Shown piece after piece: positions 14,262 to 43,012 of a stretch of DNA of 64,000 nt. Below the pieces are notes generated by a model. That model worked only from the letters and a program-made list of their open reading frames with translations. It searched no databases and had not been told where the DNA came from. Position numbers and translations under genes: made by a program. Position 1 is the first letter of the stretch. The number at the start of each line of letters is the position of its first letter. This DNA comes from Aureimonas sp. OT7 (GTDB lineage Bacteria > Pseudomonadota > Alphaproteobacteria > Rhizobiales > Rhizobiaceae), in NCBI RefSeq assembly GCF_014844055.1, contig NZ_CP062167.1, forward strand, positions 3,695,501 to 3,759,500. The letters are read 5' to 3'.

Positions 14262-14312
14262 CGGCGGCCTGTAGCGTGCCGCATTTGAAGGGGTGCGCTG
14301 GCGGCACCCCCC
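14262..14312 (-). promoter_or_regulatory. Excision-control element, copy A (upstream of recombinase operon)
   Basis: Two conserved blocks, 14262-14281 and 14294-14312, are identical to blocks at 42962-42981 and 42994-43012, with the same 12-bp spacer length. On the minus strand the outer block begins GGGGGGTGCCGCCAGCGCA and the inner one CGGCACGCTACAGG, so GTGCCG and CGGCAC form a spaced dyad. It lies 73 bp before the start at 14189; copy B lies 76 bp before the RdfS-like gene. A shared activator site or promoter is inferred. Confidence 0.65.
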
Positions 14313-14332
14313 GTAAGGATGCCGCCGGCTAG

Positions 14333-14554
14333 TCAGCCGGGCGTACGCCGTGCCTTTGCGAAACCGCGATCCGTGGCGATGAACCGCTCCAGCATGGGCA
14401 CGATCAGCCTGACGGGATCGGCGGCGGGCCGACCGCTCTCACGGGCCAGCACCTCGGCATAAGCCACCAGATCACGGTGAAGCGGCGCGGGCAGTTCCAC
14501 CGTGATCTTGACGGGTTTGTCATCGGGCAGCGGCCCGAGCTTCAGTTTCGCCAT
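14333..14554 (-). CDS. DUF2274 family protein
   Basis: 73-residue protein always found behind trbI in alphaproteobacterial conjugative clusters; function unknown. It begins MAKLKLGPLPDDKPVKI, and the rest is helical (PLHRDLVAYAEVLARESG), resembling a ribbon-helix-helix-like layout. The ATG at 14554 has AGGAGG at normal spacing. The trbI stop lies within this SD, so the two are coupled. Confidence 0.85.
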   Translation of the reverse strand: MAKLKLGPLPDDKPVKITVELPAPLHRDLVAYAEVLARESGRPAADPVRLIVPMLERFIATDRGFAKARRTPG

Positions 14555-14558
14555 GGTG

Positions 14559-15698
14559 TCAACCTCCTGCGTTCTCGAATACGAGGTCACGGGTCACGAT
14601 GACCCTGACCGGGAAGCCCGGCCGGATGGTCAGCGTCGGCGCAACCTGTAACTGGCGCTGCACGATCTGCTGCCCGGCCTGATTGACGGTATCCTGCGCC
14701 CCGTCGCGGACGGCGCGGATCAGCCGGTCCTCGTCGCTGGTCGCCAGCTCGGTCCCGACCGCGAGCAGCGTGGACAGCCCGGCGGCCTTCATCAGATCCC
14801 ACCAATGGTAATCAATCCCGTCTTCCAGCCCGGCATAGCCGCTGGCGTCCGCGCCCGGCAGGCGTTCAAGGACGATGGAACGGCCGCCCGGCAGAATCAG
14901 GCGGTTCCACACCAAGAGCACCCTGCGCTGGCCGAAGGTCACGCCGTCATCGTATTGGCCGATGATGCGCGTGCCCTGCGGGATCAGGAGCAGCGAGCCG
15001 GTGGGGCTGTCATAGACGTTCTCGGTGACTTGCGCGGTGATCTGGCCCGGAAGATCGGAACGGATGCCGGTAATCAACGCAGCGGGGATCACGGCCCCGG
15101 CCTGAAGGATGTATGGCGATGCCGGCGGCGTGACGCGATCCGGCGCGACCGTCTGCCGGTCCACGGGTCCGTTGAGGAAAGCCGTATGCCGGTCCTGTGT
15201 CGCAGGCTGCCCGCCGAGGCCAAGACCGGCAAGGCCGGGCGTGGCCGTTCCTGCCAGCACTCCCGTGCGCGGGCCGGACTGGAAAAAGACGTTGCTCAAG
15301 CGCGCGGCTTCTTCCTCGGCGCGGCGGCGCTCTTCCTCGGGATCGACGGCGGGCGTCACTATCGCGGGCGGCGCAACCGGCTGCCCTCGGTTCTGGGCGT
15401 CGAGGATCGGGCGGCCGAGGTCTCCCGGCAATGCCGGCCCCAGGACCGGGCCGGTATAGTCGCGTGGCAGGCCGGACAGGCCGTCCGCCGTGGGCCGGTT
15501 CTCGGTCGAATAGAGTTCTTCGCCGCCCGGTCCCGCATCGCGGGTCTGGAGTGCGTAGATCAGCGCGCCCCCGATGCCGAAAAGCGCAACCGCGCCGACG
15601 CCTGCCAGCATCTTGCGGGACAGGCGGGTGACGCGGGGCGGCTCGGCGCGCAGCCGCATGGGCTCGGCGGTGTCCGTGGTGGTGGTGGTGTCTGTCAT
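14559..15698 (-). CDS. trbI: Conjugal transfer protein TrbI (VirB10-like)
   Basis: 379-residue bitopic inner-membrane protein spanning the type IV secretion core. An N-terminal cytoplasmic tail is followed by one TM segment (MLAGVGAVALFGIGGALIYA), a proline-rich periplasmic linker, and the VirB10 domain from about residue 180. That domain contains ILQAGAVIPAALITGIRSDLPGQI and LLIPQGTRIIGQYD. The start overlaps the trbG stop (ATGA). It links the inner-membrane ATPases to the outer-membrane TrbG ring. Confidence 0.95.
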   Translation of the reverse strand: MTDTTTTTDTAEPMRLRAEPPRVTRLSRKMLAGVGAVALFGIGGALIYALQTRDAGPGGEELYSTENRPTADGLSGLPRDYTGPVLGPALPGDLGRPILDAQNRGQPVAPPAIVTPAVDPEEERRRAEEEAARLSNVFFQSGPRTGVLAGTATPGLAGLGLGGQPATQDRHTAFLNGPVDRQTVAPDRVTPPASPYILQAGAVIPAALITGIRSDLPGQITAQVTENVYDSPTGSLLLIPQGTRIIGQYDDGVTFGQRRVLLVWNRLILPGGRSIVLERLPGADASGYAGLEDGIDYHWWDLMKAAGLSTLLAVGTELATSDEDRLIRAVRDGAQDTVNQAGQQIVQRQLQVAPTLTIRPGFPVRVIVTRDLVFENAGG

Positions 15699-16684
15699 GA
15701 CGGGGAGTCTCCGGTCGCGCTGGCGGGCTGCGCGGCGGCGGCCTGCGTCGGGTTGATGCGGACGATCCTGACGACCTGCTGGCGGGTGCCGCTGCCAAGG
15801 CGCAGCTCGGCCGCCCCGAACAGGCGATCCACGATCAGGACGTTCTGGTAAACCCGGCTGTTGACGATCTGCGGCTCGCCATCGGAGCCGAGCACGAAGA
15901 TCGGCGGCATCTCGCCCTGCACGATCCCGGCCGGGAAGACGACATAGACGCGGCGTCCATCGTCGAAGACGGAAACCGGCCGCCATGGCGGGCTGTCGCC
16001 TGTCAGGCCGTAGCGGTAGTTTCGCGCGGCCTCGGCCGGGATGACGGGCGCGGCCGGAACGGTCTGGCGCTGGCCGGCAGGCGGTGCGGGATAGGCCCAG
16101 GCCACGGCGGGCATGTAGAGCGAGTCCTGAGCGTGCAGCTCGATCATGTAGATGCGCCGGTCGGTGGTGACGACAAGGTTGGTGGAGATGTCCGGCCGTG
16201 TCGGCTTCGCGAGGATATGGACGCGACGGTTCGCGCCCGAACCGGATTCCGTGTCGCCGATGATCCAGCGCGCGGTGTCGCCGGCCGCGATCGGCCCCGC
16301 GCCGGTCAGGCTTTCGCCCGGCTCCAGCGCGATGGTGGTGATCTGACCGACCGCCGCATAGACCTGATAGAGCGCGCCTTCCGACCACGGGTAGATCTGG
16401 ATGGCGTTGTGATAGCCCTCGCGGCGCGGCTCCACGCGGGCGGCAGCGTTGGCGTTGCCGACCTGCCCCGTGGGTGTCGAAGCATTCGCGCCGCCGCGCG
16501 TGACGGTCCATGCGGGCGGGACGTGCAACGGCCGGGGCGTGTCGCTTGTGACGGCCGCCTGCACGGTGGGCAGCGGCGGCACCTCTGCGTCATAGCTGAA
16601 CTGCGGCGTTCTATTGGTGGCGCAGCCGGCCAGCATGGTTGCGCAGAGAAAGGCGGCGGCAGAGGTTTTGACTGGCGGTGTCAT
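15695..16684 (-). CDS. trbG: Conjugal transfer protein TrbG (VirB9-like lipoprotein)
   Basis: 329-residue outer-membrane core component of the T4SS. The N-terminus has a lipobox (MLAGCATN), so it is probably a lipoprotein, as is usual for TrbG. The body shows VirB9-type beta segments (AIQIYPWSEGALYQVYAAVGQITTI cut here into YAAVGQITTIALEPGE, and VSVFDDGRRVYVVFP). It overlaps trbF and trbI by four bases each, so the block is translated as a coupled unit. Confidence 0.93.
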   Translation of the reverse strand: MTPPVKTSAAAFLCATMLAGCATNRTPQFSYDAEVPPLPTVQAAVTSDTPRPLHVPPAWTVTRGGANASTPTGQVGNANAAARVEPRREGYHNAIQIYPWSEGALYQVYAAVGQITTIALEPGESLTGAGPIAAGDTARWIIGDTESGSGANRRVHILAKPTRPDISTNLVVTTDRRIYMIELHAQDSLYMPAVAWAYPAPPAGQRQTVPAAPVIPAEAARNYRYGLTGDSPPWRPVSVFDDGRRVYVVFPAGIVQGEMPPIFVLGSDGEPQIVNSRVYQNVLIVDRLFGAAELRLGSGTRQQVVRIVRINPTQAAAAQPASATGDSPS

Positions 16685-17370
16685 TGGCTCATCTCCCGCG
16701 ACCACGAGATTGCATTGACGTAGATGCCGAGCGGATTGGCGCGCAGGCGTTCGGCGTCGCGGGGCGTCTGGATCACGATGGTCAGGATGGCCGTCCACCG
16801 TTCGGTCGTGGCGAGCTGCCCGTTTTCGTAGTGACGCTCCGTCCATGCGATCCTGAACGAGTCCGGGGATGCCCGGATGACGCTCGAGACCTCGACGGCG
16901 ACCTGCTGACGGCCGACGCGCGCGAACGGGTCGTTGGCACGGGCGTAGTCATTGAGCGCCGCCGCGCCCCGGTCGGTGGTGAACTCGTAGGCACGAAGCC
17001 AGTTCTGGCGGACAATGATCGCGTCGGCCGGGATCGCGCGGACCTGCTCGATGAAGCGGCCGAGATGCCATGCGATCTGCGGGTCAGTCGGGCGATAGTC
17101 GGCCACGGCCGGGGCGACGGTCTGCGCCTGCCCGAGATTATCGACCTGCACCACCCACGGCACCACGGTCCCGCGTGCGGACTGCCACACCAGCGCCGAG
17201 GCGAAGCCGGCTGACAGGACCAGCGAACCGAAGGCCATGAGCCGCCAGTTCCTCGCCTGCACACGGGCCGAGCCGATGCGCTCGTCCCATGCCTGTGCGG
17301 CCTTCTGGTAAGGTGTCTCTGGCTCCGGCGATTTGCCGTAATGGGTGGCTGGTCGTTTGAAGATGCTCAT
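16681..17370 (-). CDS. trbF: Conjugal transfer protein TrbF (VirB8-like)
   Basis: 229-residue inner-membrane assembly factor. One TM segment near residues 45-63 (LMAFGSLVLSAGFASALVW) follows a cytoplasmic tail that begins FKRPATHYGKSPEPETPYQKA, as in other TrbF proteins. The periplasmic domain is NTF2-like in the VirB8 family (WHLGRFIEQVRAIPAD). It overlaps both neighbours by four bases. Confidence 0.94.
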   Translation of the reverse strand: MSIFKRPATHYGKSPEPETPYQKAAQAWDERIGSARVQARNWRLMAFGSLVLSAGFASALVWQSARGTVVPWVVQVDNLGQAQTVAPAVADYRPTDPQIAWHLGRFIEQVRAIPADAIIVRQNWLRAYEFTTDRGAAALNDYARANDPFARVGRQQVAVEVSSVIRASPDSFRIAWTERHYENGQLATTERWTAILTIVIQTPRDAERLRANPLGIYVNAISWSREMSQ

Positions 17371-18737
17371 GAGCGGTCACTTTCGGAAAGGTTGACGGAG
17401 GAACCGGAGCCGTGGCTGTCGCCGGAGCGGACGGCATGGGCTGTCATGGTCGTGCCGTGGTTCATGGCCTGCGAGCGCTGCATCCGCTGCGCCCAAGAGG
17501 GAGGGCTGCCGGCTGGGCCGGATGCGGCGGCGGGGTCGGCACTTGCGCCGCCGACCGTGCCCATGGAAGACGTGCCACCGCCGGCGGCAAAGCCTGCGCG
17601 CGCGCCATCGGTGAAACTGGATTTGACGGATTCGGAAGCGCGACCGGCAGAGCGTTTGAGCGGAGAGAGGGCGGCCGAGCCTGCGGCGCGCGCGACACCG
17701 CCGAGGCCGGAGGCAACGCCTGCCGCCCCGGTCTGGCCGAGCGAGCCGACGCTATAGGCGGCGGTCGCCGCGCCCGCGGTGGCCGCGCCGCCCCGGACGG
17801 CCGCGGCTCCACCGGACAAAGCAGCGGCACCGCCCTTCGCTGCAAGCATGGCACCGCCACCGGCCGCCGCACCACCGGCAAGCACCATGCCGCCGGCAGC
17901 GAGGCCGGTTCCCACGGCCGCGCCCGCGCCGAGCTGCGGGCCGCCCGACACGATGCCGTTGGCGATGCCCGGCCCGAATATCCCCAATCCTAAGAGCGAC
18001 AGCGCTGCGAGGACGATGGCCATGGCCTCGTCGATGGTCGGGGTCGCCCCGCCGAAGCCGGCCGTGAATTGCGAAAACAGCGTCGAGCCGATGCCGATGA
18101 TGACGGCAAGAACGAGAACCTTGATGCCGGACGACACCACGTTGCCCAAGACCTTCTCGGCCATGAACGCGCTCTTGCCCCAAAGCCCGAACGGGATCAG
18201 CACGAAGCCGGCGAGCGTCACCAGCTTGAACTCGATCAGGGTGACGAAAAGCTGGATGGCGAGGATGAAGAAGGCCAGCACCACCAGCGCCCATGCGAAC
18301 AGCAGGCAAGCGATCTGGATGAAGTTCTCGAAGAAGGCGATCCAGCCCATCAAGTCGCTGATCGACTCCAGAAGCGGGCGGCCTGCGTCGAGGCCGGTTT
18401 GCGCGACGCGGCCCGGCCGCATCAGATCGGTGACGGAAAAGCTGGTGCCGGACGCCATGAGGCCGAGGCCGGCGAAGCTCTCGAAGACGATCCTCGCCAA
18501 ATTGTTCCAGTTGCCGATGATGTAGGCGAAGACGCCGACGAACAGGGTCTTTTTCACGAGCCGGGCGATTATGTCGTCATCCGCGCCCCAGGCCCAAAAC
18601 AGCGCGGCCAAGGTCACGTCGATGACAATAAGCGTCGTGGCGATGAACGCGACTTCGCCGGACAACAGGCCGAATCCGCTGTCGATGTATGAGGTGAAAA
18701 CCCCAAGGAAATTGTCGATGACGCCAGTGTTGCCCAT
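17367..18737 (-). CDS. trbL: Conjugal transfer protein TrbL (VirB6-like)
   Basis: 456-residue polytopic membrane channel component. The N-terminal ~270 residues contain repeated hydrophobic helices (VAFIATTLIVIDVTLAALFW, ALVVLAFFILAIQLFVTL). The C-terminal third is Ala/Gly-rich and low-complexity (AAAGGGAMLAAKGGAAALSG), probably a flexible cytoplasmic tail, as is common in alphaproteobacterial TrbL. The start MGNTGVIDNFLGVF is typical. It sits 2 bp from trbK. Confidence 0.94.
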   Translation of the reverse strand: MGNTGVIDNFLGVFTSYIDSGFGLLSGEVAFIATTLIVIDVTLAALFWAWGADDDIIARLVKKTLFVGVFAYIIGNWNNLARIVFESFAGLGLMASGTSFSVTDLMRPGRVAQTGLDAGRPLLESISDLMGWIAFFENFIQIACLLFAWALVVLAFFILAIQLFVTLIEFKLVTLAGFVLIPFGLWGKSAFMAEKVLGNVVSSGIKVLVLAVIIGIGSTLFSQFTAGFGGATPTIDEAMAIVLAALSLLGLGIFGPGIANGIVSGGPQLGAGAAVGTGLAAGGMVLAGGAAAGGGAMLAAKGGAAALSGGAAAVRGGAATAGAATAAYSVGSLGQTGAAGVASGLGGVARAAGSAALSPLKRSAGRASESVKSSFTDGARAGFAAGGGTSSMGTVGGASADPAAASGPAGSPPSWAQRMQRSQAMNHGTTMTAHAVRSGDSHGSGSSVNLSESDRS

Positions 18738-18739
18738 GG

Positions 18740-19027
18740 TCAGTGCCTTTCGCTGGATTGCGGCGCGGCGGGCGCTGGCGGACGGCCGAGGAAGCGGTCG
18801 CGGGATTGCGCCCAGGCGGCGAGGCAGTCGGCATCGCTGGCAGCTGCCTCGCCGAGCTGCTGGCAGCGGCGTAGGGTTTCGCGCAGGGGATCGGCCGGTG
18901 GCTGGAAGGCCGAGGCCAGGGGCGGCGCGGAAGGTTCGTCCTTCCGCGCCATGTCGATTGCGGTCGCCGTGACGGCGATGGCGACGAACACCACGGCCCC
19001 GAGCCGGGCCAGCATCTTGCCGTCCAT
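18740..19027 (-). CDS. trbK: Putative entry-exclusion protein TrbK-alt
   Basis: 95-residue membrane-anchored protein. It has an N-terminal hydrophobic segment (LGAVVFVAIAVTATAI) and a periplasmic C-terminal region with two cysteines (LRRCQQLG, DADCLAAW), matching the TrbK-alt pattern between trbJ and trbL. Proteins in this position reduce uptake of the same element by cells that already carry it. The exclusion role is inferred from family and position. Confidence 0.8.
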   Translation of the reverse strand: MDGKMLARLGAVVFVAIAVTATAIDMARKDEPSAPPLASAFQPPADPLRETLRRCQQLGEAAASDADCLAAWAQSRDRFLGRPPAPAAPQSSERH

Positions 19028-19041
19028 GGCGAGCCTCCCGG

Positions 19042-19818
19042 TCAGTTGTTGCCGTTAAACATTTGCGCGTTCCCCGGCTGGTAGCCGGTGCCGGGCGTCA
19101 GGAACTGCTCGCGCTGGATGCGGCCCTGTTCGGCGGCGGTCGCGCGCTCTGCCTCGGTCAGCGCGTCGGCGCGGCCGTTCGCCGAGATAACCGCGATCAG
19201 GTCGGAAAGCTGCTGCGACTGGAGGGCTAGAAGCTGGTTGCCGGCCTGCGTGGCTTGCAGCGCCCCGGTCGCGCCCTGGCTCTGGCCGACAAGCGCAGCC
19301 ATCTCGGCGCGGTTGCTGTCGATGTTGCCGACCGCCCCCGCCTGCACACGCATGGCGTCCTGCAAGCCGCCGACCGTGTTCTCCCAACGCGACCGCGCAT
19401 CGGCGACAAGCTGGGCGTCGGTCGCCGAAAGCGAGACATTGCCGTATTGCTGCTGGAACGCCTGGTCGATCTGGCCGACCTCGAAAGCGATGTTCTGCGC
19501 CTGACCCAAAAGCTGCTGCGTCCGTTGGACGTTCTGCTGAAGGGCCTGAAGGGAGGAATGCGGCAGGCTCGCCAGATTGCGGGCCTGATTGATGAGCATC
19601 TGCGCCTCGTTCTGGAGGCTCTGAATCTGGTTGTTGATCTGCTCCAGCGTGCGCGCGGCCGTGAGGACGTTCTGCGCGTAGTTGGACGGGTCATAGACGA
19701 TCCGGCCGAATCCAAAGAGCTGGGCATGGGCAGGTGCCGCCGCCATCGGCGAGAGTGCAACGGGAACGGCGAGGACTGCCGCCGCGATCAGCGCGGCACG
19801 GGAAGTCGTAATAGTCAT
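19042..19818 (-). CDS. trbJ: Conjugal transfer protein TrbJ (VirB5-like)
   Basis: 258-residue secreted pilus-associated protein. A clear signal peptide ends APAHAQ, and the mature part is a long, glutamine-rich alpha-helical hairpin (EQINNQIQSLQNEAQMLINQ). TrbJ/VirB5 proteins locate at the pilus tip and help contact with the recipient. It lies between trbE (15 bp upstream) and trbK. Confidence 0.93.
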   Translation of the reverse strand: MTITTSRAALIAAAVLAVPVALSPMAAAPAHAQLFGFGRIVYDPSNYAQNVLTAARTLEQINNQIQSLQNEAQMLINQARNLASLPHSSLQALQQNVQRTQQLLGQAQNIAFEVGQIDQAFQQQYGNVSLSATDAQLVADARSRWENTVGGLQDAMRVQAGAVGNIDSNRAEMAALVGQSQGATGALQATQAGNQLLALQSQQLSDLIAVISANGRADALTEAERATAAEQGRIQREQFLTPGTGYQPGNAQMFNGNN

Positions 19819-19833
19819 AGCGAAGTCTCCTTC

Positions 19834-26853: not shown

Positions 26854-27843
26854 TTACTCGTGGCAGGCATCCTCAAGGTTTCTGCGGTGACGGTGATTCG
26901 TGATCTTGCGTGCGAGGCCGAGCAGGTTGTTCAGCGCGGCGTTTTGGCTGGATGGGGACCAGACGGCGGAGAACGGGATTGGCTCGGGCTCGTCGGCGAC
27001 GGGCAGGAAGACGAGGCCCGACGTGGGCAGGAGCGACGTGGCCGCGCCGACGATGGTGATGCCGAAGCCCTTCCCGATCATCGATAGCAGCGTGCCACGC
27101 CCAACGTCGAAGCGCAGGATCGACAGCGCGGGCCAGCGTCCTATGAGGCGCAGCACGATATGGTCGTGAACCTGCGGGCCGGTGCCGCCATGGCGGACAA
27201 GGAAGGTCTCGCCCGCCAGATCGGCCCAGGTGACGGCTGACCGCCCGGCGAGCGGATGGCGCTCCGGCAGCGCGGCCAGCAGCGGTTCGGTCCAGATGCA
27301 TCGGCTATGACAGTCGGGCAGATCGGGCCTGCCCGCGACGAACGCCACGTCCAGCCGGTCGGCGCGAAGCTGCATCACGGCATCGCGGGCCGTGCCTTCG
27401 GCAATCTCGACCTCGATGCCGGGATGGTCCTCGCGATATTGGCCGATCAGTTCGGCCAGATAGCTGCCGGGGATCATCGCATGGATGCCGATGCGCAGCC
27501 GGCCGCACTCTCCCGACGCCGCCATGCCAGCGGTCTTCACGGCATGGTCGAGCTGATCGACGCCGGCCGATACCCGTTCAACGAAAAGGCGTCCGGCCTC
27601 GGTGAGCCGGACGCCTCTGGTGTTGCGCTCGAACAGGCGGATGCCAAGGTCTTGCTCCAGCGCCTTGATCCTCGTGCTGACGCTGGACTGGGTGGTGCCG
27701 AGCGCCTGAGCCGCCCGGTAGAAGCTCAGATACTCGGCGACCGCCAGCGTCTGGATCAACGACGCAAGGGGAATGCGTGAGCCTAGCGAGGTCGGCACTC
27801 CCCATTGACGGTCATTCATCGGTGCCGAGCGCCGCCGACGCAT
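26854..27843 (-). CDS. LysR family regulator, copy 1
   Basis: 329-residue LysR-type regulator. The N-terminal winged HTH reads LSFYRAAQALGTTQSSVSTRIKAL, and the effector domain starts near residue 100 (GRLRIGIHAMIPGSYLAELI). About 280 residues are almost identical to the LysR gene at 31071-32030; only the two ends differ. In Tn4371-type and related ICEs a LysR gene commonly borders the traG operon. It probably controls transfer or the cargo that follows. Confidence 0.93.
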   Translation of the reverse strand: MRRRRSAPMNDRQWGVPTSLGSRIPLASLIQTLAVAEYLSFYRAAQALGTTQSSVSTRIKALEQDLGIRLFERNTRGVRLTEAGRLFVERVSAGVDQLDHAVKTAGMAASGECGRLRIGIHAMIPGSYLAELIGQYREDHPGIEVEIAEGTARDAVMQLRADRLDVAFVAGRPDLPDCHSRCIWTEPLLAALPERHPLAGRSAVTWADLAGETFLVRHGGTGPQVHDHIVLRLIGRWPALSILRFDVGRGTLLSMIGKGFGITIVGAATSLLPTSGLVFLPVADEPEPIPFSAVWSPSSQNAALNNLLGLARKITNHRHRRNLEDACHE

Positions 27844-31070: not shown

Positions 31071-32030
31071 CTAGGGAGCCAGATTCGATACTCGCATTTC
31101 GCTGGCGAGGCCGAGCAGGTTGTTCAGCGCTGCGTTTTGGCTGGATGGGGACCAGACGGCGGAGAACGGGATCGGCTCGGGCTCGTCGGCGACGGGCAGG
31201 AAGACGAGGCCCGACGTGGGCAGGAGCGACGTGGCCGCTCCGACGATGGTGATGCCGAAGCCCTTCCCGATCATGGACAGGAGCGTGCCGCGTCCCACGT
31301 CGAAGCGCAGGATAGACGGTGCCGGCCAGCGTCCTATGAGGCGTAGCACGATATGATCGTGAACCTGCGGGCCGGTGCCGGCGTGTCGGACAAGGAAGGT
31401 CTCGCCCGCCAAATCGGCCCAGGTGACGGCCGACCGCCCGGCGAGCGGATGGCGCTCCGGCAGCGCGGCCAGCAGCGGTTCGGTCCAGATGCATCGACTA
31501 TGGCAGTCGGGCAGATCGGGCCTGCCCGTGACGAACGCCACGTCTAGTCGGTCGGCGCGAAGCTGCATGATCGTCTTGCGCGCCGTGCCTTCGATGATCT
31601 CCACGTCAATGCCGGGATGGTCCTCGCGATATTGCCCGATCAGTTCGGCGAGGTAGCTGCCGGGGATCATCGCGTGGATGCCGATGCGCAGCCGGCCGCA
31701 TTCTCCCGACGCCGCCATGCCAGCGGTCTTGACCGCATGGTCGAGCTGATCGACGCCGGCGGACACGCGCTCAACAAAGATGCGTCCGGCCTCGGTGAGC
31801 CGGACGCCTCGCGTGTTGCGCTCGAACAGGCGGATGCCAAGGTCTTGCTCCAGCGCCTTGATCCGCGTGCTGACGCTGGACTGGGTGGTGCTGAGCGCCT
31901 GCGCAGCCCGGTAGAAGCTCAGATACTCGGCAACGGCCAGCGTCTGGATCAGCGAAGCAAGGGGGATGCGTGACCCTAGCAGCGGAGGCGGTTGGCCGTT
32001 ACAGAGATTCTTGATTGCCCGTCGCCGCAT
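31071..32030 (-). CDS. LysR family regulator, copy 2
   Basis: 319-residue LysR regulator, near-identical to the 26854-27843 copy through the whole HTH and effector domain (for example QSSVSTRIKALEQDLGIRLF and GKGFGITIVGAATSLLP in both). The differences are concentrated in the first ~20 residues, the last ~15 and a few scattered positions such as EIIEGTARKTI. It lies upstream of the DsbA/SMR cargo and close to an MFS exporter. The pair in direct orientation suggests duplication. Confidence 0.93.
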   Translation of the reverse strand: MRRRAIKNLCNGQPPPLLGSRIPLASLIQTLAVAEYLSFYRAAQALSTTQSSVSTRIKALEQDLGIRLFERNTRGVRLTEAGRIFVERVSAGVDQLDHAVKTAGMAASGECGRLRIGIHAMIPGSYLAELIGQYREDHPGIDVEIIEGTARKTIMQLRADRLDVAFVTGRPDLPDCHSRCIWTEPLLAALPERHPLAGRSAVTWADLAGETFLVRHAGTGPQVHDHIVLRLIGRWPAPSILRFDVGRGTLLSMIGKGFGITIVGAATSLLPTSGLVFLPVADEPEPIPFSAVWSPSSQNAALNNLLGLASEMRVSNLAP

Positions 32031-35754: not shown

Positions 35755-35876
35755 AGAACGCCTTTGAAATATGGAATGACTCGGTTCGGAGGGCGGCGGC
35801 GCGCAGCGTCCGGCGCTCGTCGCACCCCGTTGCCTTCGACATATTCCGGCTGCACTCCCTGGAGAATTGCGCTACA

Positions 35877-35905
35877 ATTCCGAACATAACGGAACAATAT
35901 TCCGG
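35877..35905. promoter_or_regulatory. TTCCG-type LysR operator between MFS and LysR genes
   Basis: A dyad TTCCG-N7-CGGAA at 35878-35894 is followed by another TTCCG at 35900-35904, with one more TTCCGG at 35845. The T-N11-A geometry suits a LysR-type autoregulatory and target site in this divergent intergenic region. Confidence 0.5.
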
Positions 35906-35920
35906 ATTGGTGAGGCGCCA

Positions 35921-36808
35921 TTGGATACGTTCGGAACCTTGAAAATCTTCGTCCACGCGGCTGATGCGCGCAATTTCACCACGGCGGGTCAGCAGCTTGG
36001 CCTGTCGTCCTCTGCGATCGGAAAGGCGATAGCGCGCCTGGAGGAGCATCTTGGCGTGCGCCTCCTGCATCGCTCCACGCGCACCGTCACGCTGACGCCG
36101 GAAGGCGCGTGCTTTCTCGAACGCAGCCGGCGCATCCTCGGCGAGTTCGAAGCGGCCGAACTGGAAGTCACCAGCACGCGCGAGACGCCGAGAGGCACTT
36201 TACGGGTCAGCCTGCCTCTTGCGGGCATGTTGATGATGCCCGCGCTGACCGCCTTCATGCAGGCATATCCAGCCATCGAACTCGATCTCGACTTCACCGA
36301 CCGGCTGGTGGACGTGATCGACGAGGGGTTCGATGCCGTGATCCGCGCGGGCGATGTCCGCGACTCACGGCTGATGACGCGCACGCTCGGCCCGTTCCGG
36401 CTGATGCTGGTCTGCTCGCCCGGCTACATCGAACGGCGCGGCGAACCCCGCTCGCCCGATGATCTGCGACATCACTCGTGCCTGCACCACCGATACGCGA
36501 CCAGTGGGAAGTTGGAACGCTGGCCGCTCCTCAACGACGGCGAGCCTGTCGATGTCGATCTCCCGCGAACAGCGGTGGCAAATACCATCGAGCCATTAAT
36601 CGACATGGCGGCGGCGGACCTCGGCATCGCGTGTCTTCCCGACTTCGCGATCCGGGAGCAATTGCGAAGTGGCCGATTGCAGGCTGTGCTTGCAGGGCAC
36701 ACATGGCATGAAGGGACGTTCCGGCTCCTGTGGCCGTCGAGCCGGCATATGTCGTCCAAGCTCCGCGTCTTCGTGGATTTTATGGGCGAGACGCTTCTCT
36801 CCGAGTGA
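35921..36808 (+). CDS. LysR family regulator of the DHA1 exporter
   Basis: 295-residue LysR regulator of the CrgA/AaeR-like branch. The HTH is TTAGQQLGLSSSAIGKAIARLE, and the effector domain includes GTLRVSLPLAGMLMMPAL and IDMAAADLGIACLPDF. The start is a TTG at 35921 (giving MDTFGTLKIFVHAAD, the family's normal N-terminus), with GAGG just upstream; a TTG at 35867 would add 18 unlikely residues. It ends 6 bp from the relaxase stop, tail to tail. Confidence 0.9.
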   Translation: MDTFGTLKIFVHAADARNFTTAGQQLGLSSSAIGKAIARLEEHLGVRLLHRSTRTVTLTPEGACFLERSRRILGEFEAAELEVTSTRETPRGTLRVSLPLAGMLMMPALTAFMQAYPAIELDLDFTDRLVDVIDEGFDAVIRAGDVRDSRLMTRTLGPFRLMLVCSPGYIERRGEPRSPDDLRHHSCLHHRYATSGKLERWPLLNDGEPVDVDLPRTAVANTIEPLIDMAAADLGIACLPDFAIREQLRSGRLQAVLAGHTWHEGTFRLLWPSSRHMSSKLRVFVDFMGETLLSE

Positions 36809-36814
36809 TGACTG

Positions 36815-38869
36815 TCACAGCCCCAACCCCCTCTGCCGTCCCAACTGCCACGACACCGAACCGCCCTGCACGATGCCCGTGACCTCGCGGCCGAACTGGC
36901 GGTCGATCACCGGCCGCCACGGGACAAGGGTGAACTCGTGGCTCTTTTCGACCAGGGCGAACTTGCCGCTCGTTAGCTGGACAGTGCCGGTGAACTTGCC
37001 GCTGACGCTCTCGCCATCCTTGGCGGCACGGAAGGGCAATCCCTTGCTCTCCGCCATCTCCGCGCCGACGCGGGCAACCTCCCGTTCGCGCAACGTGGCG
37101 AGAAGGCTGCGCCGGTAGAAGATGCGGCCATCCCGCGTTCGGTTCGCGTCGCCCTGTTCGACGTGATGTTCACGGCGGCGGTCGATGGCCTCGCGCACCT
37201 CCTGACCGAACCCGGCCGGGGCAAGGTCGGTGGTCTCGCTATGGATCATCCGGCGGTCGAGCCAGGTCACGCCATCCGCGCCTATCTGCTTCTCCAGGTC
37301 GAAGGCCGACAGGACGCGAACGCTTGCCTGCCGTGTGCGGCCGGCGTCATAGCTCGCGGCGCGGCTCTCGAAATCCTCGGGGATGCGCCATTGGTCGGCG
37401 TCGATCCGCTCCGCGATTCCGGCGCGGCGTAGCGCCTCCAGCCGGCGCACATGGGCATCGACATAGCCCTCGTAATCGCCGCCTGGAACTCGGCCCTCGA
37501 ATTTCGCCTGCTCCAGATGGCGGCTCGGACGATAGATGCCGTCCTCGGCGACGGCGGCAATGCTGCGGTCGGACGGCCGGGCCGTCGCCTCGGCACGGCC
37601 GATCTCGATGACGCCGCCGATCCGGGCATCCTCCAACTGCATGGGGTCGATGTTGGCGATGTGATGCGTCCGCCCGTCGATCCCGTCCACGACGATGGTG
37701 AGATTGTCGCCCAGCTCATTGGCGAGATACTTGTCGAGAACGCGGCCAGTGACGGGCGCAGCGGGTGCGCCCTCATGGATGCGGAAGGTCATCGGATCGC
37801 GTTCCAGCCCGTCGGCGGCGAGCGACTTTTGCATGGTGCGGATAATGTCGCCGCGTTCGCCAAGCTCGCGCAGGGTCGGTTCCAGTCGCTCGTTCAATTC
37901 CCAGACGCCAGGCCCGTGTTCGGTGGCGAGGCCCATCCTCCCCAGCTTGGAAAGCCGGCGAAGGCGAAGGCTCCGCTCGAATTGCCGCTTCGGTTCTCCC
38001 GGCTCTTGGCGCAAGTCGAGGAAACGCGCATCGGCTTCCTCGGCCATGGCACGGTCGAGGCGCGTGAAACGATCCTGATCTATTTCGATGGTGAGCTTGT
38101 GGGCCTGCTCGATCTCGGTCACTTGGCCGAGTTCCAGCGTCGCCAGCTCACTGGCGCGCTCGCGGATGCCATGAACGATATAGTCGCCGTTGATGACCAG
38201 ATCCTGCCCCAGATCATCTTTGCCCCGGACGATGACATGCACGTGGGGATGGCCGGTATTGTAGTGGTTGACCGCGATCCAATCGAGCTTGGTGCCGAGG
38301 TCGCCTTCCACCCGGCTCATGAGGTCGCGGGTATAGGCCGTTAGGTCGGATAGCTCCGCCCCGTCTTCCGGTGAGACGATGAACTGGAATTGATGGCGAT
38401 CGTCCTTGCCGCGATCAAGGAAGGCGTCGCCATCGGCGCGATCCTCATGCGACGAATAGAGCTGTCCTCGCTCGCCATCGCGCGAGGTGCCGTCGCGCTG
38501 GATATAGCGCAGATGGGCTTGCGCCTTGCGGGTCTTTCCAGGGTGAAGAATGTAACGCTGCTGAACGATGACGCGCCGCACGCCCGGCTGACGATGATTC
38601 CAGCCGCCGCCGAGATTGCGGGTTCGGACGAAGACCGCGCCGCGTCCTCTCTTCACGCCCTTGCCGCTCGACAGCACGGCATGGCGACCGGCAGGCGCTG
38701 ACGGCGTGAACGCGGCCGTTCCAAAACCGACGCGCGGCGAGGTTCTACGCTGCTGCCGGGCGATCTTCTTGGCCTGAGTGAGAAAGCTCTTGGTCTTGCC
38801 CGCGCGCGGCGTGTCCGAGCGGATGCGACCGGACTTCGGCCGGAAGCGGTTTTCGTCGTCGGCGCTCAA
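36815..38869 (-). CDS. rlxS: Relaxase / DUF3363 mobilisation nuclease (RlxS-like)
   Basis: 684-residue relaxase that should nick oriT and pilot the strand to the recipient. The histidine metal-binding motif is GHPHVHVIVRG around residues 207-211, preceded by YTRDLMSRVEGDLGTKLDW. The middle and C-terminus are the DUF3363 region. The basic N-terminus (RFRPKSGRIRSDTPRAGKTK) may bind DNA. It is the last gene of the RdfS-RepA-DUF2840-TraF-DUF736-Slt block, as in ICEMlSymR7A-type ICEs. Repeats just upstream may include oriT. Confidence 0.92.
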   Translation of the reverse strand: MSADDENRFRPKSGRIRSDTPRAGKTKSFLTQAKKIARQQRRTSPRVGFGTAAFTPSAPAGRHAVLSSGKGVKRGRGAVFVRTRNLGGGWNHRQPGVRRVIVQQRYILHPGKTRKAQAHLRYIQRDGTSRDGERGQLYSSHEDRADGDAFLDRGKDDRHQFQFIVSPEDGAELSDLTAYTRDLMSRVEGDLGTKLDWIAVNHYNTGHPHVHVIVRGKDDLGQDLVINGDYIVHGIRERASELATLELGQVTEIEQAHKLTIEIDQDRFTRLDRAMAEEADARFLDLRQEPGEPKRQFERSLRLRRLSKLGRMGLATEHGPGVWELNERLEPTLRELGERGDIIRTMQKSLAADGLERDPMTFRIHEGAPAAPVTGRVLDKYLANELGDNLTIVVDGIDGRTHHIANIDPMQLEDARIGGVIEIGRAEATARPSDRSIAAVAEDGIYRPSRHLEQAKFEGRVPGGDYEGYVDAHVRRLEALRRAGIAERIDADQWRIPEDFESRAASYDAGRTRQASVRVLSAFDLEKQIGADGVTWLDRRMIHSETTDLAPAGFGQEVREAIDRRREHHVEQGDANRTRDGRIFYRRSLLATLREREVARVGAEMAESKGLPFRAAKDGESVSGKFTGTVQLTSGKFALVEKSHEFTLVPWRPVIDRQFGREVTGIVQGGSVSWQLGRQRGLGL

Positions 38870-38884
38870 GGCTGCGCCTCTGAG

Positions 38885-39059
38885 CGAAATCGCGGAAAAT
38901 CGGGCAATCGGCGGCTATGGTGCCGGTCAAAATCCAGCGACGCCAAGGCGTTGCACGAAATCGCGGCACTCTGCCGCTCAAAACCATGGTGCCGGAATCG
39001 GTCGCCCAACCAGTGTGCAGACAACAACAATTTCGGAAACCGGCCCGATATGGTGCCGG
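38885..39059. other. Tandem repeats upstream of the relaxase; candidate oriT
   Basis: The 313-bp gap 38870-39182 has no convincing gene. It contains ATGGTGCCGG three times (38917, 38986, 39050) and CGAAATCGCGG twice (38885, 38956), each placed about 32 bp before an ATGGTGCCGG. This gives a repeat period of roughly 65-70 bp. Position immediately 5' of the relaxase gene is usual for oriT. The function is inferred from position and repetition only. Confidence 0.4.
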
Positions 39060-39182
39060 TTTCTTCAATCTTGCCCTCCGCTTTTTCTGCCCTTTCCGCT
39101 CTTCCTGCCGGGAATCCAGCCAGACGCAAATCTGCCTGACTGGACACCGGAATGCCCGCCGCGAAGCGCGGGAACCCCATCT

Positions 39183-40106
39183 TCATGGCGTTCCTCCGTC
39201 CCTCGCGCGGGCCACGAACATGCCGTCGCCCTGCGGCTCTGCATCGGCAGGGTCGCGCACCGGAACGGTCGCATGAGCGTCGCCGGACTGCGCCTCGGGG
39301 GGCAACGCGACGGCAGCCGGAGCGTCGGCCGAGCGCATGGCGAACAGCGGTGCCTCGCGCCAATCCGGCGGCGGCGGCGGTGCGGGTAACGGCATATCGG
39401 GCGCGGCCGCGCCGCCGAGAACGGGCGCGAGCGCGGCGACATAGGCACGGGTCTCAGCGGGCAATGTGCGGCCAGTCGAAAGATATTCGTCATAGCGGCC
39501 GGGACCGGCATTGTAGGCGGCGAGCATCGCCGCGACATTGCCGTAGCGGTCGAACATTTCGCGCAGATAGGCGGTGCCGGCGAGGATGTTGTCACGCGGT
39601 TCGTAGGGATCGCGGCCGAGACCGTATCGGCCGCGCAGTTCTGTCCATGTCGCCGGCATCACCTGCATCAATCCCATTGCGCCGGCCGACGAAACGGCCC
39701 GCACATCGCCTGCGCTCTCGGCACGCAGCACGGCCCGAATCCACGCTTCGGGAATACCGAAGCGCTGCGACGCCTCGGCGATATGATCGGCCTGAAGATC
39801 GACGGCGGCGGGACGAACAACGGGCGTCGATTGCGCGACCGCCGCCGCCGAACCGCCGCCAAGCCAGAGCCCGCCGAGCGCTGCGAGAACGATCCAACGC
39901 CATGCCGCCCTGTCTCCGCCACGACGCCAGCCTGCCAGCGTGCTCGCTGCGGTCAAGGGCAAGGCGCAAGCGCCGGCCGATGGCCGCCCTTGACCTTCGT
40001 TGCGCGCGCCGGCCGTCCTGCGCCCGAGCGGGACGACGGGATGAGCCGGCTTTTTCGCGAACAACGGGATGGGGCTTTTGAGCGTGGGCATGACGCTGGA
40101 TCGCAT
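39183..40106 (-). CDS. Lytic transglycosylase (SLT domain)
   Basis: 307-residue peptidoglycan-cleaving enzyme that should open a path for the transfer apparatus. A TM/signal-anchor near residues 68-90 (WIVLAALGGLWLGGGSAAAV) is followed by the SLT domain. That domain has the catalytic glutamate in RAVLRAESAGDVRAVSSAGA, then MGLMQVMPATW and AAYNAGPGRYDEY. The C-terminus is proline-rich. An internal ATG at 40091 is an alternative start. It is co-directional with DUF736 (4 bp away). Confidence 0.92.
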   Translation of the reverse strand: MRSSVMPTLKSPIPLFAKKPAHPVVPLGRRTAGARNEGQGRPSAGACALPLTAASTLAGWRRGGDRAAWRWIVLAALGGLWLGGGSAAAVAQSTPVVRPAAVDLQADHIAEASQRFGIPEAWIRAVLRAESAGDVRAVSSAGAMGLMQVMPATWTELRGRYGLGRDPYEPRDNILAGTAYLREMFDRYGNVAAMLAAYNAGPGRYDEYLSTGRTLPAETRAYVAALAPVLGGAAAPDMPLPAPPPPPDWREAPLFAMRSADAPAAVALPPEAQSGDAHATVPVRDPADAEPQGDGMFVARARDGGTP

Positions 40107-40110
40107 GGCC

Positions 40111-40458
40111 TCAGTCCCGCTCGTCGCGCGGTTTCGGACGGCTCCAGTGCAGCGACCACGATGCGCCCGTATCGTCGTCGCGGAACAGGTTGGCGCGGAT
40201 CGGCTGCGCCAAGGCCGGGTCGTCGATCAGCACGGAAAGGTATTCGCCGGCCTTCTCGCCGGTGCGTTTCCATGCCGCGCCGATCTCCGGGCCGGTTTCG
40301 TTGCTCATGCCGTCGAAGAGGTGAACGCGATAATCTGGTGCGTTCTCCGCGTCGGAGGGTTCTGCCGCGACGATGATGATGTCCGGATGCAGGAAGAGCG
40401 TCCCGAGGTGTCCGATGAAGCCGGTCTCGTCGCGCGTGAATTCGCCAATCTGTGGCAT
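40111..40458 (-). CDS. DUF736 family protein, copy 1
   Basis: 115-residue protein of the DUF736 family, common in alphaproteobacterial plasmids and ICEs; function unknown. It begins MPQIGEFTRDETGFIGHL, with EIGAAWKRTGEKAGEYLSVL and the end WSLHWSRP in the family pattern. ATG 40458 has AAGGAG at good distance. A second copy lies at 45926-46243. Confidence 0.88.
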   Translation of the reverse strand: MPQIGEFTRDETGFIGHLGTLFLHPDIIIVAAEPSDAENAPDYRVHLFDGMSNETGPEIGAAWKRTGEKAGEYLSVLIDDPALAQPIRANLFRDDDTGASWSLHWSRPKPRDERD

Positions 40459-40529
40459 GACAGTCTCCTTGGCGGTGAGGTTGAAAAGAACCATCGGCGG
40501 GCACCGCTCCCGCTGATCGGAAAGCGGGA

Positions 40530-41075
40530 TCAATGCGTCGGCGCGCGCCATTCGTAGCGGCCGTCGCCTTCGGGATCGGTCCAGAGCGGGACCGCTCGGC
40601 CGATGACGGAATCTGCGGGGATGGGTCCGAAGTAGCGGCCGTCGAGGCTGTCTCGAACGTCCCAATTCATGAAGAAGAGTTCGCCGTCGCCGATGACGCG
40701 GCAGCCCTGCCAGACGGGCAGATCGCGGCCGAGACTGTCGCGCTCCAGCGCGTCGCCCATCTCCACGTCGTCCACCGTGATGGTGGATCGCACGCGGCAC
40801 ACGCGCTGTCCCGGCAGGCCGAGGACGCGCTTGAGCAGCGGCACGCCGCGCGCGACATAGCCGCGTTCAACCATGAAGAGGGCGAGCGGTTCGGGCGGCA
40901 TGACGGCGACCAGCTCCGGTACCTCGATCCGGTCGGCCGGCGCGACGGTGTAGAAGCCGACCGGCGCGCTCGCCGTCGTGTTCCAGATCAGTTTCGCGGG
41001 CCAATCGACCGCGCTTCCGGCAGCGATACCGATCACGGCGAACAACGACACTGTGAGGATGCGGCGGCGCGTCAT
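40530..41075 (-). CDS. traF: Conjugal transfer signal peptidase TraF (S26)
   Basis: 181-residue membrane protease that matures the TrbC pilin. An N-terminal TM (ILTVSLFAVIGIAAGSAV) is followed by the catalytic serine in ASAPVGFYTV and the lysine in LLKRVLGLPGQRV. The downstream DGELFFMNWDVRDSLDGRYFG matches the family. Its start overlaps the DUF2840 stop by four bases. Confidence 0.93.
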   Translation of the reverse strand: MTRRRILTVSLFAVIGIAAGSAVDWPAKLIWNTTASAPVGFYTVAPADRIEVPELVAVMPPEPLALFMVERGYVARGVPLLKRVLGLPGQRVCRVRSTITVDDVEMGDALERDSLGRDLPVWQGCRVIGDGELFFMNWDVRDSLDGRYFGPIPADSVIGRAVPLWTDPEGDGRYEWRAPTH

Positions 41076-41590
41076 GGGTCGATCCTGCAGCGATGAAGCC
41101 AGGCGGCGTGTCGCTCGGGGGTGTAGGCGTGCGGCTCCAGACCGGCCGTCAGGCGGTTGTGGACGTGCCGCCAGTGATCCGGCGAGGCGTCGGCCGGATC
41201 GAGGCCGAGCGCGTCAACGGCGTCGATGGCGGCAAGCGCGCGCTGCACCTTGGGCCAGCCGTCGAGGCGCAACAGGATTTCGCCGCCGGGACGCACGAAA
41301 GGCAGCGTCTGGAACGGCTCGCCGCGACGAACCGCGCGCACGATGTCGATGCGCGAGATGATCGTGCCATGGTCGCCTCTCGCCCAGCGGACGAAGGCGA
41401 AGACGCTCTCCGGCGCGAAGCCGACGACGCTGCGGCGGCGGTCGAGTATCTGTTCGTAGCTCTTGCGGCCGAACCTGATCCAGTGCTCGATCTTCTGCTT
41501 CTGGAACGTCAGTTCGACCAGCGTGGTGAAGGCGGGCGGCTCGTTGTTCAGCAGACGGCCGTGCATCCGGCGTGGTGGATGCCCGGTCAT
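41072..41590 (-). CDS. DUF2840 family protein
   Basis: 172-residue protein seen between repA and traF in many ICEs of this family; function unknown. The family's recognisable part is FGRKSYEQILDRRRSVVGFAP and ERHAAWLHRCRI at the end. It overlaps both traF and repA by four bases, so it is translated as part of the coupled operon. Confidence 0.85.
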   Translation of the reverse strand: MTGHPPRRMHGRLLNNEPPAFTTLVELTFQKQKIEHWIRFGRKSYEQILDRRRSVVGFAPESVFAFVRWARGDHGTIISRIDIVRAVRRGEPFQTLPFVRPGGEILLRLDGWPKVQRALAAIDAVDALGLDPADASPDHWRHVHNRLTAGLEPHAYTPERHAAWLHRCRIDP

Positions 41591-42615
41591 GGCGAACCCC
41601 GCCGGGTGGCACCGGCACCACGGATCGCGTGCGCGCGCGTCAAAGAAGAAGAGTTAGATTCTCTGTTAGATTCTTCTATAGAGTCCGTCGCGCGATTTGC
41701 GCCTAATGTCCCGATACTGCGTGCGCCTAATGTCCCGATAGGATTCACAGGGGTTTCCACAGGCACTGTGGATGGATTTCCGGGCCGGAAACGCAGCAGT
41801 TCTCGCCCGTCCTCCCATTCGATCTGGAGGCCGTATCCGGGCAGCGGCTGGCGGGCCGCGATGCGGCGCAGGTCGAGCGCGAAGTCGGACGGTCGCGCGA
41901 GGCTGCCGGACTTCTGATGGAGATGGGAAACCTCGAACGTCCAACCCTCGGGCTGGCGTCCGGCGTGCTTGCGGGCGACGCGATAGAGCCAACGTTCGAT
42001 GCCGCCGGTCAGCCGGAAATATGCTGGGTCGATGGTCAGCACCAGCGAGCGGTCGATGACGCTGGTGTAGAGCCATTCGGGCAGGACGAACTCCATGCCC
42101 TCGACACGCCCGGCGCGCGTCGTCATCTCCTCCCATTCGTTGATCCACGAGAACTGCCGCCGCCGCCAATGCTTCCCGTTGCGGATCGTGGTGGCGATGA
42201 CGGTGGATTGCAGGCGGGCGAGCGCGGACTTGAGCAGCATGTAGTCGCGATTGCCTGTGGCTCGCCCGATCGCGCGCAGGAGCTGATAGGGCATGAAGCG
42301 GAAGAACCGCGACGTGGCGAAGCCGCTGTTCTCGGCCGCGACGATCTGCGAGGCGGCCCAGATCAGCACGTCCGCGTCCCATATCGTCGCCATGCCGTGC
42401 TCGGGCATGGCGAAGACCTGCACCTGCACGTCGGCGGTCCTGTAGCGAATCGGTTTCAGGCGCGGACGTTTGCCGAGCGAGAAGAAGGGCCGTTCCATCA
42501 GATCGCGCTGGTCGCGCGGCGGCGCATCGCCCGTCGCGACAACAAAGGGATCGAGCTGGCTGCGTTCGCTGGTTTCGGCCGGCTGCGCGGGCCGGGCATC
42601 GTCGTCGCGCAGCAT
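41587..42615 (-). CDS. repA: Replication initiator protein A (RepA, RPA family)
   Basis: 342-residue initiator typical of alphaproteobacterial plasmids and ICEs, allowing replication of the excised circle. It has the RPA core: MERPFFSLGKRPRLKPIRY, PEHGMATIWDADVLIWAASQ, the central winged-helix region and GWTFEVSHLHQKSG. The last 40 codons contain two direct repeats (IGTLGA twice). It is preceded by 1 bp from the RdfS-like gene. Confidence 0.93.
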   Translation of the reverse strand: MLRDDDARPAQPAETSERSQLDPFVVATGDAPPRDQRDLMERPFFSLGKRPRLKPIRYRTADVQVQVFAMPEHGMATIWDADVLIWAASQIVAAENSGFATSRFFRFMPYQLLRAIGRATGNRDYMLLKSALARLQSTVIATTIRNGKHWRRRQFSWINEWEEMTTRAGRVEGMEFVLPEWLYTSVIDRSLVLTIDPAYFRLTGGIERWLYRVARKHAGRQPEGWTFEVSHLHQKSGSLARPSDFALDLRRIAARQPLPGYGLQIEWEDGRELLRFRPGNPSTVPVETPVNPIGTLGARSIGTLGANRATDSIEESNRESNSSSLTRAHAIRGAGATRRGSP

Positions 42616-42616
42616 T

Positions 42617-42886
42617 TTACAGTTCGTCCCGCTCTTTGGGCGTCAGCGGACGCGCGGGAAAGACCGTGCCGGCGTTCTTGTCGCTGGTGGATTTGCGGGT
42701 TCCGACAGCGGACCACGATTCGAGATCGCGGACGGCGTAGAGGACGCGGCCACCGATCTTGCGGTAGACAGGGCCGGTCCCGTAAGTCCGGTGTTTCTCA
42801 AGGGTGCGGATGGATATACCGAGAAAGCGCGCGGCCTCCTTGGTGCGCAGCAGGCGCGGCGGCAGGTCTGCGTTGCGTCTCGCCAT
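42617..42886 (-). CDS. rdfS: HTH excisionase-like protein (RdfS-like recombination directionality factor)
   Basis: 89-residue MerR/AlpA-type HTH protein: LRTKEAARFLGISIRTLEKHRTYGTGPVYRKIGGRVLYAVRDLESW (cut into LRTKEAARFLGISIRTLEKH and VLYAVRDLESW). In ICEMlSymR7A the protein in this slot, upstream of the traF/rlxS genes, is RdfS, which directs the integrase toward excision and is switched on by FseA. A conserved element 76 bp upstream is shared with the recombinase operon. The RdfS assignment rests on gene order. Confidence 0.75.
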   Translation of the reverse strand: MARRNADLPPRLLRTKEAARFLGISIRTLEKHRTYGTGPVYRKIGGRVLYAVRDLESWSAVGTRKSTSDKNAGTVFPARPLTPKERDEL

Positions 42887-42961
42887 ATGGAATACCTCCG
42901 GTTCGTCAGACAGGCGGCTGTCGGGAGCGACAGCGGGCTGTGGCGAACGATGGCGAGGGAT

Positions 42962-43012
42962 CGGCGGCCTGTAGCGTGCCGTATTCGCGCCTATGCGCTG
43001 GCGGCACCCCCC
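42962..43012 (-). promoter_or_regulatory. Excision-control element, copy B (upstream of rdfS)
   Basis: Blocks 42962-42981 and 42994-43012 repeat those at 14262-14312 exactly, with spacing kept. Distance to the rdfS start is 76 bp. The rest of 42887-43128 contains nothing else recognisable apart from a short A-run after the element. Confidence 0.65.

Follow-up and report, generated by a model that had tools for sequence, protein, structure and literature searches.

A single integrative and conjugative element (ICE) of Aureimonas sp. OT7, a member of the Rhizobiaceae, carries the same short control element before two separate gene sets. Both copies are in all likelihood promoters that depend on FseA, the activator that the ICE itself encodes. 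The ICE lies in a stretch of 64,000 nucleotides (contig NZ_CP062167.1, positions 3,695,501 to 3,759,500), here called the window. One gene set begins with rdfS and runs to a relaxase gene; the other holds a large serine recombinase. The evidence was read from sequence, and consists of the exact repeat, its geometry, its conservation, its gene contexts and its co-occurrence with FseA.

The repeated element

The preliminary description of the window had pointed to two blocks that recur identically about 29 kb apart, and this holds. A pattern made of both blocks, with the 12-bp spacer left free, has exact matches at 14262-14311 and at 42962-43011; the window contains no further match even when 3 mismatches are allowed. 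The exact copies are separated by 28.7 kb and lie on the minus strand, which is the coding strand of both gene sets. None of 100 dinucleotide-preserving shuffles contained the pattern, which rules out a chance repeat. The first start codons, ATG 14189 and ATG 42886, are each preceded by a GGAGG sequence and agree with the distances of 73 and 76 bp given earlier. The likeness between the copies exceeds the blocks, reaching 82% over 71 nt, and includes a -10 region that the preliminary description had omitted. A third copy of the element is found on the same chromosome, at C1:758293.

Before the recombinase operon, the predicted FseA-type box GTGCCGCC-N16-TGCGGCAC lies at 14276-14307 on the minus strand (14278-14305 as a 28-bp box in the published sense). 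The predicted -35, GCTACA (14270-14275), stands 2 bp past the proximal hexamer, and the predicted -10, CATGCT (14247-14252), 17 bp past the -35. Before the rdfS operon, on the same strand, the predicted box GTGCCGCC-N16-TACGGCAC lies at 42976-43007 (28-bp box 42978-43005). Sequence geometry places its -35, again GCTACA, at 42970-42975, and the predicted -10, CATCGT, follows 17 bp later at 42947-42952. The hexamers of the recombinase box, GCCGCC-N16-TGCGGC, give 5 of 6 inverted matches; those of the rdfS box, GCCGCC-N16-TACGGC, give only 4, which becomes 6 of 8 when the arms are taken as 8 bp long. A central CG is present in both hexamers at both sites. The element can thus be described as a predicted FseA-activated promoter, with inverted half-sites, a weak -35 (GCTACA), 17 bp and a -10 (CATNNT).

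Match to the published FseA box

In ICEMlSymR7A (R7A below), the binding site of FseA consists of two inverted hexamers with 16 bp between them, beside the -35 of the rdfS promoter. The inverted repeat is required, and its orientation matters (PMC10359603). For comparison, 80 named loci were fetched with a piece of R7A RdfS, and five of them (L096, L101, L111, L112 and L119) were tested. These are promoters of close Mesorhizobium relatives, not R7A's own record, and the conserved central pair of the published hexamers was likewise read as CG from Mesorhizobium promoters, not from the published figure.

All five rdfS promoters follow the order GGCGAA-N16-TTCGCC (N17 in L119), 2 bp, -35, 17 bp, -10. 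Their -10 is GATCCT or CATCCT and lies 25 bases past the proximal hexamer. The window sites have spacings equal to these, with other half-sites. The preliminary description had suggested an FseA-type site. The geometry of box and promoter agrees with this, and FseA would presumably bind and activate both copies. A sigma-54 promoter (GG-N10-GC spacing) was considered and rejected, as the sigma-70-like -35/-10 geometry appears to match the R7A-type promoters.

Conservation in relatives

A search of 394 genomes of the family used a 38-bp pattern and allowed 3 mismatches. The pattern was found at 66 places in 36 genomes, and the same pattern read backwards, as a control, in none of the 394. A 39-bp pattern was found in 12 of 151 relatives, its control being empty as well. 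Both searches merged, with the window's genome included and duplicates dropped, give 73 distinct sites. Of these, 40 stand before rdfS and 29 before serine-recombinase genes. The other 4 stand before an AlpA-family gene (2), a broken rdfS (1) and a lost recombinase operon (1). Conservation before both gene sets in related ICEs, which the preliminary description had proposed to look for, is therefore found, and no classified relative site precedes unrelated genes. Sites of the recombinase type are undercounted, since the spacer of the window's own such site differs from the 38-bp pattern, giving that site 4 mismatches. Boxes of both kinds lie together on one contig, on the same strand, in 19 genomes; the distance between the rdfS and the recombinase box ranges from 21.0 to 45.6 kb, with a median of 26.5 kb.

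The serine recombinase is present in 58 of the 394 genomes. The recombinase loci examined were 30 plus 20 fetched, minus three repeats of one place and one that was too short. The box, at up to 3 mismatches, is present in 17 of the 20 distinct loci that have the helix-turn-helix (HTH) gene, and in 2 of the 26 that do not (L278 and L280). The recombinase-type promoter also occurs in annotated plasmids of Paracoccus, Enterobacter, Klebsiella and Brevundimonas (8 records). In pKPC_CAV1176 (L296), for instance, it lies between DUF2274 and a hypothetical protein-DUF6516-HTH-recombinase series. Both this plasmid and Paracoccus sp. TOH p2 (L297) have trb genes and the box, together with ORF100 and HTH genes as in this type of ICE. 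The recombinase gene past ORF100 and HTH is, in L297, annotated on the opposite strand.

Conservation within the promoter was expressed as mean pairwise identity within the rdfS sites, within the recombinase sites and between the two classes, in that order. The left arm gives 0.96, 0.97 and 0.96, the right arm 0.98, 0.99 and 0.99, the 16-bp gap 0.89, 0.81 and 0.85, and the -35 0.90, 0.96 and 0.87, values that are inflated because the arms, most of the gap and the -35 lay in the search pattern. The -10, outside the patterns, gives 0.92, 0.95 and 0.93. The 17-bp spacer gives 0.89, 0.87 and 0.65, the leader 0.59, 0.75 and 0.35, and the upstream flank 0.33, 0.33 and 0.25. All 40 rdfS sites and 28 of the 29 recombinase sites have GCTAC at the -35, these bases being part of the search pattern. 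CATNNT, which lies outside the patterns, stands at the -10 in all 29 recombinase sites and in 37 of the 40 rdfS sites; none of the 69 sites lacks its A or its T. Such a profile fits a promoter with an upstream dimer site.

The same values bear on the idea that the second copy is a relic of promoter duplication or recombination with no regulatory role. The likeness between the two promoters does extend beyond the box, and the box before rdfS is the only one recognised in eight other FseA-type ICEs. However, the 29 recombinase sites keep their arms and -10 at 0.95-0.99 (the arms in the search pattern, the -10 not), with flanks at 0.33 and leaders at 0.75. Moreover, the box is retained in three ICEs or remnants that have a different downstream module. 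A relic without function is very unlikely.

The position of the block within the promoter is relevant to another idea, namely that it is an RNA leader element, similar to a riboswitch or attenuator, common to the two operons. In its favour, folding of the 141-nt recombinase leader is stronger than in shuffled versions of it (z -4.2). However, the conserved -10 comes after the block, and a transcript from that promoter should therefore not include the block. The 144-nt rdfS leader has a folding z of only -0.7, and the 64-nt blocks alone -0.6 and 0.1. Rfam at gathering score matched neither leader, the only match being a tRNA. Having little or no support from folding or from Rfam at this score, an RNA element was rejected as extremely improbable.

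Link to FseA

The fseA gene of the ICE lies about 0.76 kb upstream of rdfS, as two overlapping frames at 43648-44431 on the minus strand (PF20109, E 2.6e-21; PF10074, E 6e-28). The DUF6499-type domain starts from 44431 and ends at a stop just after 44219, and the DUF2285 domain continues in the +1 frame to 43648. Their overlap is near 44250, and their order is the one that a predicted +1 frameshift would need. Such a frameshift joins both parts of FseA in about 61% of homologues (PMC10359603). Within the DUF6499-type part, AWEYLRRHDG (44362-44333) fits the AWEFLRRN-like motif of FseA.

FseA of this clade, taken as at least 60% identity, is found in 36 of the 394 genomes (G381, with two fragments, was not counted). 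The box is also found in 36, and 32 genomes have both.

Divergent relatives have other half-sites. Before rdfS, G313 has GGGCCG/CGGCCC and G331 has GTGTCG/CGACAC, both arms being altered together in each; a second ICE in G308 likewise has GGGCCG/CGGCCC. ICEs whose FseA is at 50-54% identity (G376:C44 and G291) have GTGCCGGA/TCCGGCAC, and ICEs with remoter FseA have half-sites such as GGCGAT or TGCGAT. Symmetric changes of this kind in divergent relatives are as expected of a dimer site.

These variants were also searched for second copies. Exact matches to GGGCCG/CGGCCC (G313, G308) stand before rdfS, with one more match at 1 mismatch in G308. GTGTCG/CGACAC has a single exact match (G331), also before rdfS, as are the exact matches to GTGCCGGA/TCCGGCAC (G291, G376). 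At 2-3 mismatches, the last pattern is commoner elsewhere in seven genomes than its reversed-pattern control. At this level G376:C44 has none beyond the rdfS site, and G291:C43 has only the rdfS site again, read on the other strand.

A rival view is that another protein of the ICE, such as RdfS, recognises the element. The pair of sites would then be an RdfS feedback loop instead of an FseA switch. RdfS of R7A binds the rdfS promoter and attP and regulates rdfS and intS (PMC11963761). The ICE also encodes RdfS, whose sequence and that of FseA diverge in parallel. On the other hand, no consensus motif for RdfS emerges from PMC11963761, and the element is a precise inverted repeat at fixed spacing to -35 and -10, as for FseA. 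The symmetric changes in both arms also fit a dimer with direct readout. Control by RdfS is quite unlikely.

Besides the inflated identities of the arms and the -35, several points weigh against FseA-dependent promoters at both sites. The half-sites differ from the GGCGAA of R7A, and for this reason binding by the local FseA is something we infer. A strict rule (5 of 6 inverted matches and a central CG) misses the window's own rdfS box, and finds a box at the expected 86-89 bp in only 4 of 12 listed class-level rdfS loci (L178, L179, L185 and L192). A scan for the full geometry (6 of 8) hits 9 places in the window, that is both boxes and 7 others, compared with 0-3 places in each of ten block-shuffled windows. 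Since 7 further places fit, geometry alone is not unique, and the weight rests on the exact repeat and the comparative evidence. Part of the conservation is explained by shared descent alone.

Four genomes have the box without a match to clade FseA (G006, G176, G177 and G257; in G177 the rdfS box is near a contig end). Conversely, clade FseA is present in G003, G313, G331 and G349, where no box is found at 3 mismatches; the stretches fetched from G003 and G349 show no rdfS. Three recombinase loci have the HTH gene without the box (G376:C44, G361 and G362), and in G291 and G072:C11 an AlpA gene adjoins DUF2274, again without the box.

Reach and origin of the second promoter

Eight remoter FseA-type ICEs were compared: one near 168 kb on the window's own chromosome, and those of G640, G627, G820, G731, G745, G725 and G517. 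Their FseA was recognised by tblastn at 30-41% identity in five. In the other three it was recognised from frames immediately before rdfS that contain AWEWLRRN or resemble DUF2285. In all eight, whose integrases were not located, an exact box stands before rdfS only, as judged from the four best matches per ICE. Weaker matches, at up to 4 mismatches, did not exceed ten controls with shuffled arms in 6 of the 8. They exceeded them in G640 (11 compared with 0-9) and in G517 (5 compared with 0-4, partly shifted readings of the same box). A general rule, by which all FseA-type ICEs would have a second box, was rejected on this evidence.

The second box thus looks like a derived feature of one ICE clade, since no second box was recognised in the remoter ICEs, in G376:C44 or in G291. 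As its likeness to the rdfS promoter extends beyond the box, the second promoter is probably a duplicate of that promoter, gained in an ancestor of this clade. G376:C44 (L294, 35300-38200) has the same recombinase operon without the second box, beside an FseA of 50% identity, and is a useful outgroup for dating the gain of the box.

The recombinase is not the only module found behind the second promoter. At C1:758330 on the window's chromosome, in G185 and in G090, the box follows DUF2274 and precedes an AlpA-family gene, which has a tyrosine integrase next to it. In the two of these loci that were read further, the integrase is convergent and adjoins a GMP-synthase gene (guaA-like, recognised from sequence and not by family search). 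There were 34 AlpA matches, 30 of them with loci examined, and 5 adjoin DUF2274. The box, at up to 2 mismatches, is present in 3 of these 5 and in 0 of the 25 elsewhere. It seems, then, that the box belongs to the backbone of the ICE and serves different modules.

The spot behind trbI-DUF2274 could, more tentatively, be an FseA-driven docking point for integration modules. Here ORF100 and the AlpA protein, as first genes, would be the modules' own directionality factors. The AlpA-type excisionase would serve the tyrosine integrase on the guaA side, and ORF100, as a new family, the serine recombinase. RdfS would be freed from excision, and the same FseA would also switch remnants such as C1:758293. 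This wider proposal is possible, though less likely than not to hold as a whole.

The window's chromosome also holds a second FseA-type ICE (G000:C1:168761; L205-L210), of another half-site type, and the remnant at C1:758330 (L092) has the window's box type before its AlpA gene. Cross-talk of FseA is therefore possible.

Genes of the two operons

Each gene set is taken as one operon from its gene order. The preliminary description had assigned rdfS, a replication initiator and a relaxase to one set and an integrase to the other, and these contents are upheld. The gene rdfS (42617-42886, minus strand) matches the RdfS structure 8dgl_A by phmmer against PDB (E 2.2e-9). The block that follows it occupies 36815-42615, on the same strand. 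Its first gene encodes an RPA-type replication initiator (41587-42615). The presumed operon continues with a DUF2840 gene (41072-41590), a signal-peptidase-like TraF (40530-41075), DUF736 (in 40111-40800) and an SLT transglycosylase (39183-40106). Last comes an RlxS-like relaxase (36815-38869), whose NCBIfam match is below the cut-off (649 compared with 850 bits).

The recombinase operon, also on the minus strand, starts with ORF100 (13887-14189), which has no Pfam or NCBIfam match. It is followed by a winged-helix protein of the HVO_A0114 family (13482-13868; Pfam PF25212, E 2e-21), which is TumA-like and resembles an antitoxin. The large serine recombinase (11608-13485) has the Pfam domains Resolvase, Recombinase and Zn_ribbon_recom. 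Directly upstream of the promoter, at the end of the trb genes, lies the DUF2274 gene (14333-14590, minus strand; PF10038). In L015, L039 and L061 a TumE-family gene stands between ORF100 and the HVO_A0114-family gene (Pfam was run on the L015 copy). The window operon is without it, as seen at the 13868-13887 junction, and retains the antitoxin-like gene alone.

The recombinase frame (11608-13485) crosses a tRNA-Ser gene (GGA, 11776-11865) in antisense. The end of the ICE is probably at the 3' side of this tRNA, with the C-terminus of the recombinase read from host DNA. In the whole genome, a search for 26 bp of the tRNA end, with 2 mismatches allowed, gives this place and no other.

Other features of the window lie apart from the two operons. 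A stretch of 300 nt is repeated at 93% identity (26903-27202 and 31096-31395, 4.2 kb apart) within two open reading frames (ORFs) of similar size. A 52-nt repeat at 90% links a DUF932 ORF (45602-45653) with an ORF that has a ParB HTH domain (50469-50520). Between these repeats, a PIN-domain gene adjoins a FitA-like antitoxin gene (46965-47704), likely a toxin-antitoxin pair inside the ICE.

Comparison with known systems

The element resembles the FseA box of PrdfS in ICEMlSymR7A in its 16-bp gap, its -35 two bases on, its 17-bp spacer, the place of its -10 and the rdfS gene downstream (PMC10359603). Like that ICE, the present one carries a two-frame DUF6499-DUF2285 FseA gene. It differs in its half-site, GTGCCGCC compared with GGCGAA, and in having a second copy before the integration module.

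The route to the integrase is indirect in R7A, where FseA activates rdfS and RdfS activates intS (PMC11963761). FseA likewise stands on top here, with rdfS as a direct target. In R7A, however, the recombinase is a tyrosine recombinase activated by RdfS, whereas here serine recombinase genes have a predicted FseA promoter of their own; the intS promoter of R7A was not inspected for a box.

A parallel for direct control is SetCD of SXT/R391. There int and xis are direct targets of SetCD, and the element becomes established in the recipient only if SetCD is newly synthesised (PMC4344509). As in the SetCD regulon, predicted sites of one activator stand before separate promoters, here those of rdfS (as xis, a candidate) and of the recombinase genes. 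The activator and motif are different. SetCD also targets several transfer operons, whereas only two boxes were recognised here. The preliminary description had held the wiring to be undescribed. It is new for FseA-type ICEs, in that direct FseA control of an integrase operon was not found in the excerpts of openly licensed literature searched, but direct control of int and xis together is known for SetCD.

The backbone is that of Tn4371-/ICEMlSym-like elements, with rdfS, a Rep_3-type initiator, DUF2840, traF, DUF736, rlxS, trb genes and fseA (PMC8627217). In that survey, 73 of 79 ICEs and integrative and mobilizable elements had tyrosine integrases; the serine recombinase sets the present ICE apart from most of them.

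A model for joint control

The model starts with FseA of the ICE, presumably made by +1 frameshift, which would bind the inverted half-sites as a dimer. Bound FseA would then recruit RNA polymerase to the weak -35/-10 that follows immediately downstream. Both promoters would be switched on simultaneously, one for rdfS-RPA-DUF2840-traF and the following genes to rlxS, the other for the ORF100-HTH-serine recombinase genes. A transfer-competent cell that makes FseA would in this way produce the relaxase, the replication initiator, RdfS and the recombinase module together. The second promoter, behind trbI-DUF2274, would drive any integration module that is plugged in, a serine recombinase in most of the members found and an AlpA-type excisionase beside a tyrosine integrase in three. 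By analogy with SetCD, establishment in the recipient may require FseA as well.

The preliminary description had further suggested that integrase and excisionase could be raised together. Predicted FseA promoters do stand before both gene sets. The excisionase part is uncertain, since the known partners of RdfS are tyrosine integrases (PMC11963761, PMC5882170) and the integrase here is a serine recombinase. It is doubtful that RdfS acts as the excision factor of this recombinase, and here it may mainly be a regulator. ORF100 may instead be a directionality factor or partner of the serine recombinase. Of the 26 examined loci without the HTH gene, 22 have an ORF100 homologue before the recombinase. 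There are 161 homologues, and the named ones among the 120 matches listed are hypothetical or uncharacterised proteins.

The promoter pair is real, conserved and most likely functional, and extends the FseA system to the integration module. ICEs under FseA-type activators form a widespread proteobacterial family, and in the excerpts of the literature examined the direct target of FseA is the rdfS operon. If the integration module is indeed a second, conserved target, one activator could jointly switch excision, transfer and perhaps integration in the new host. It makes the true FseA regulon testable, as well as the missing directionality factor of this family of serine recombinases. It also suggests how an ICE can swap its integration module and yet keep control over it.

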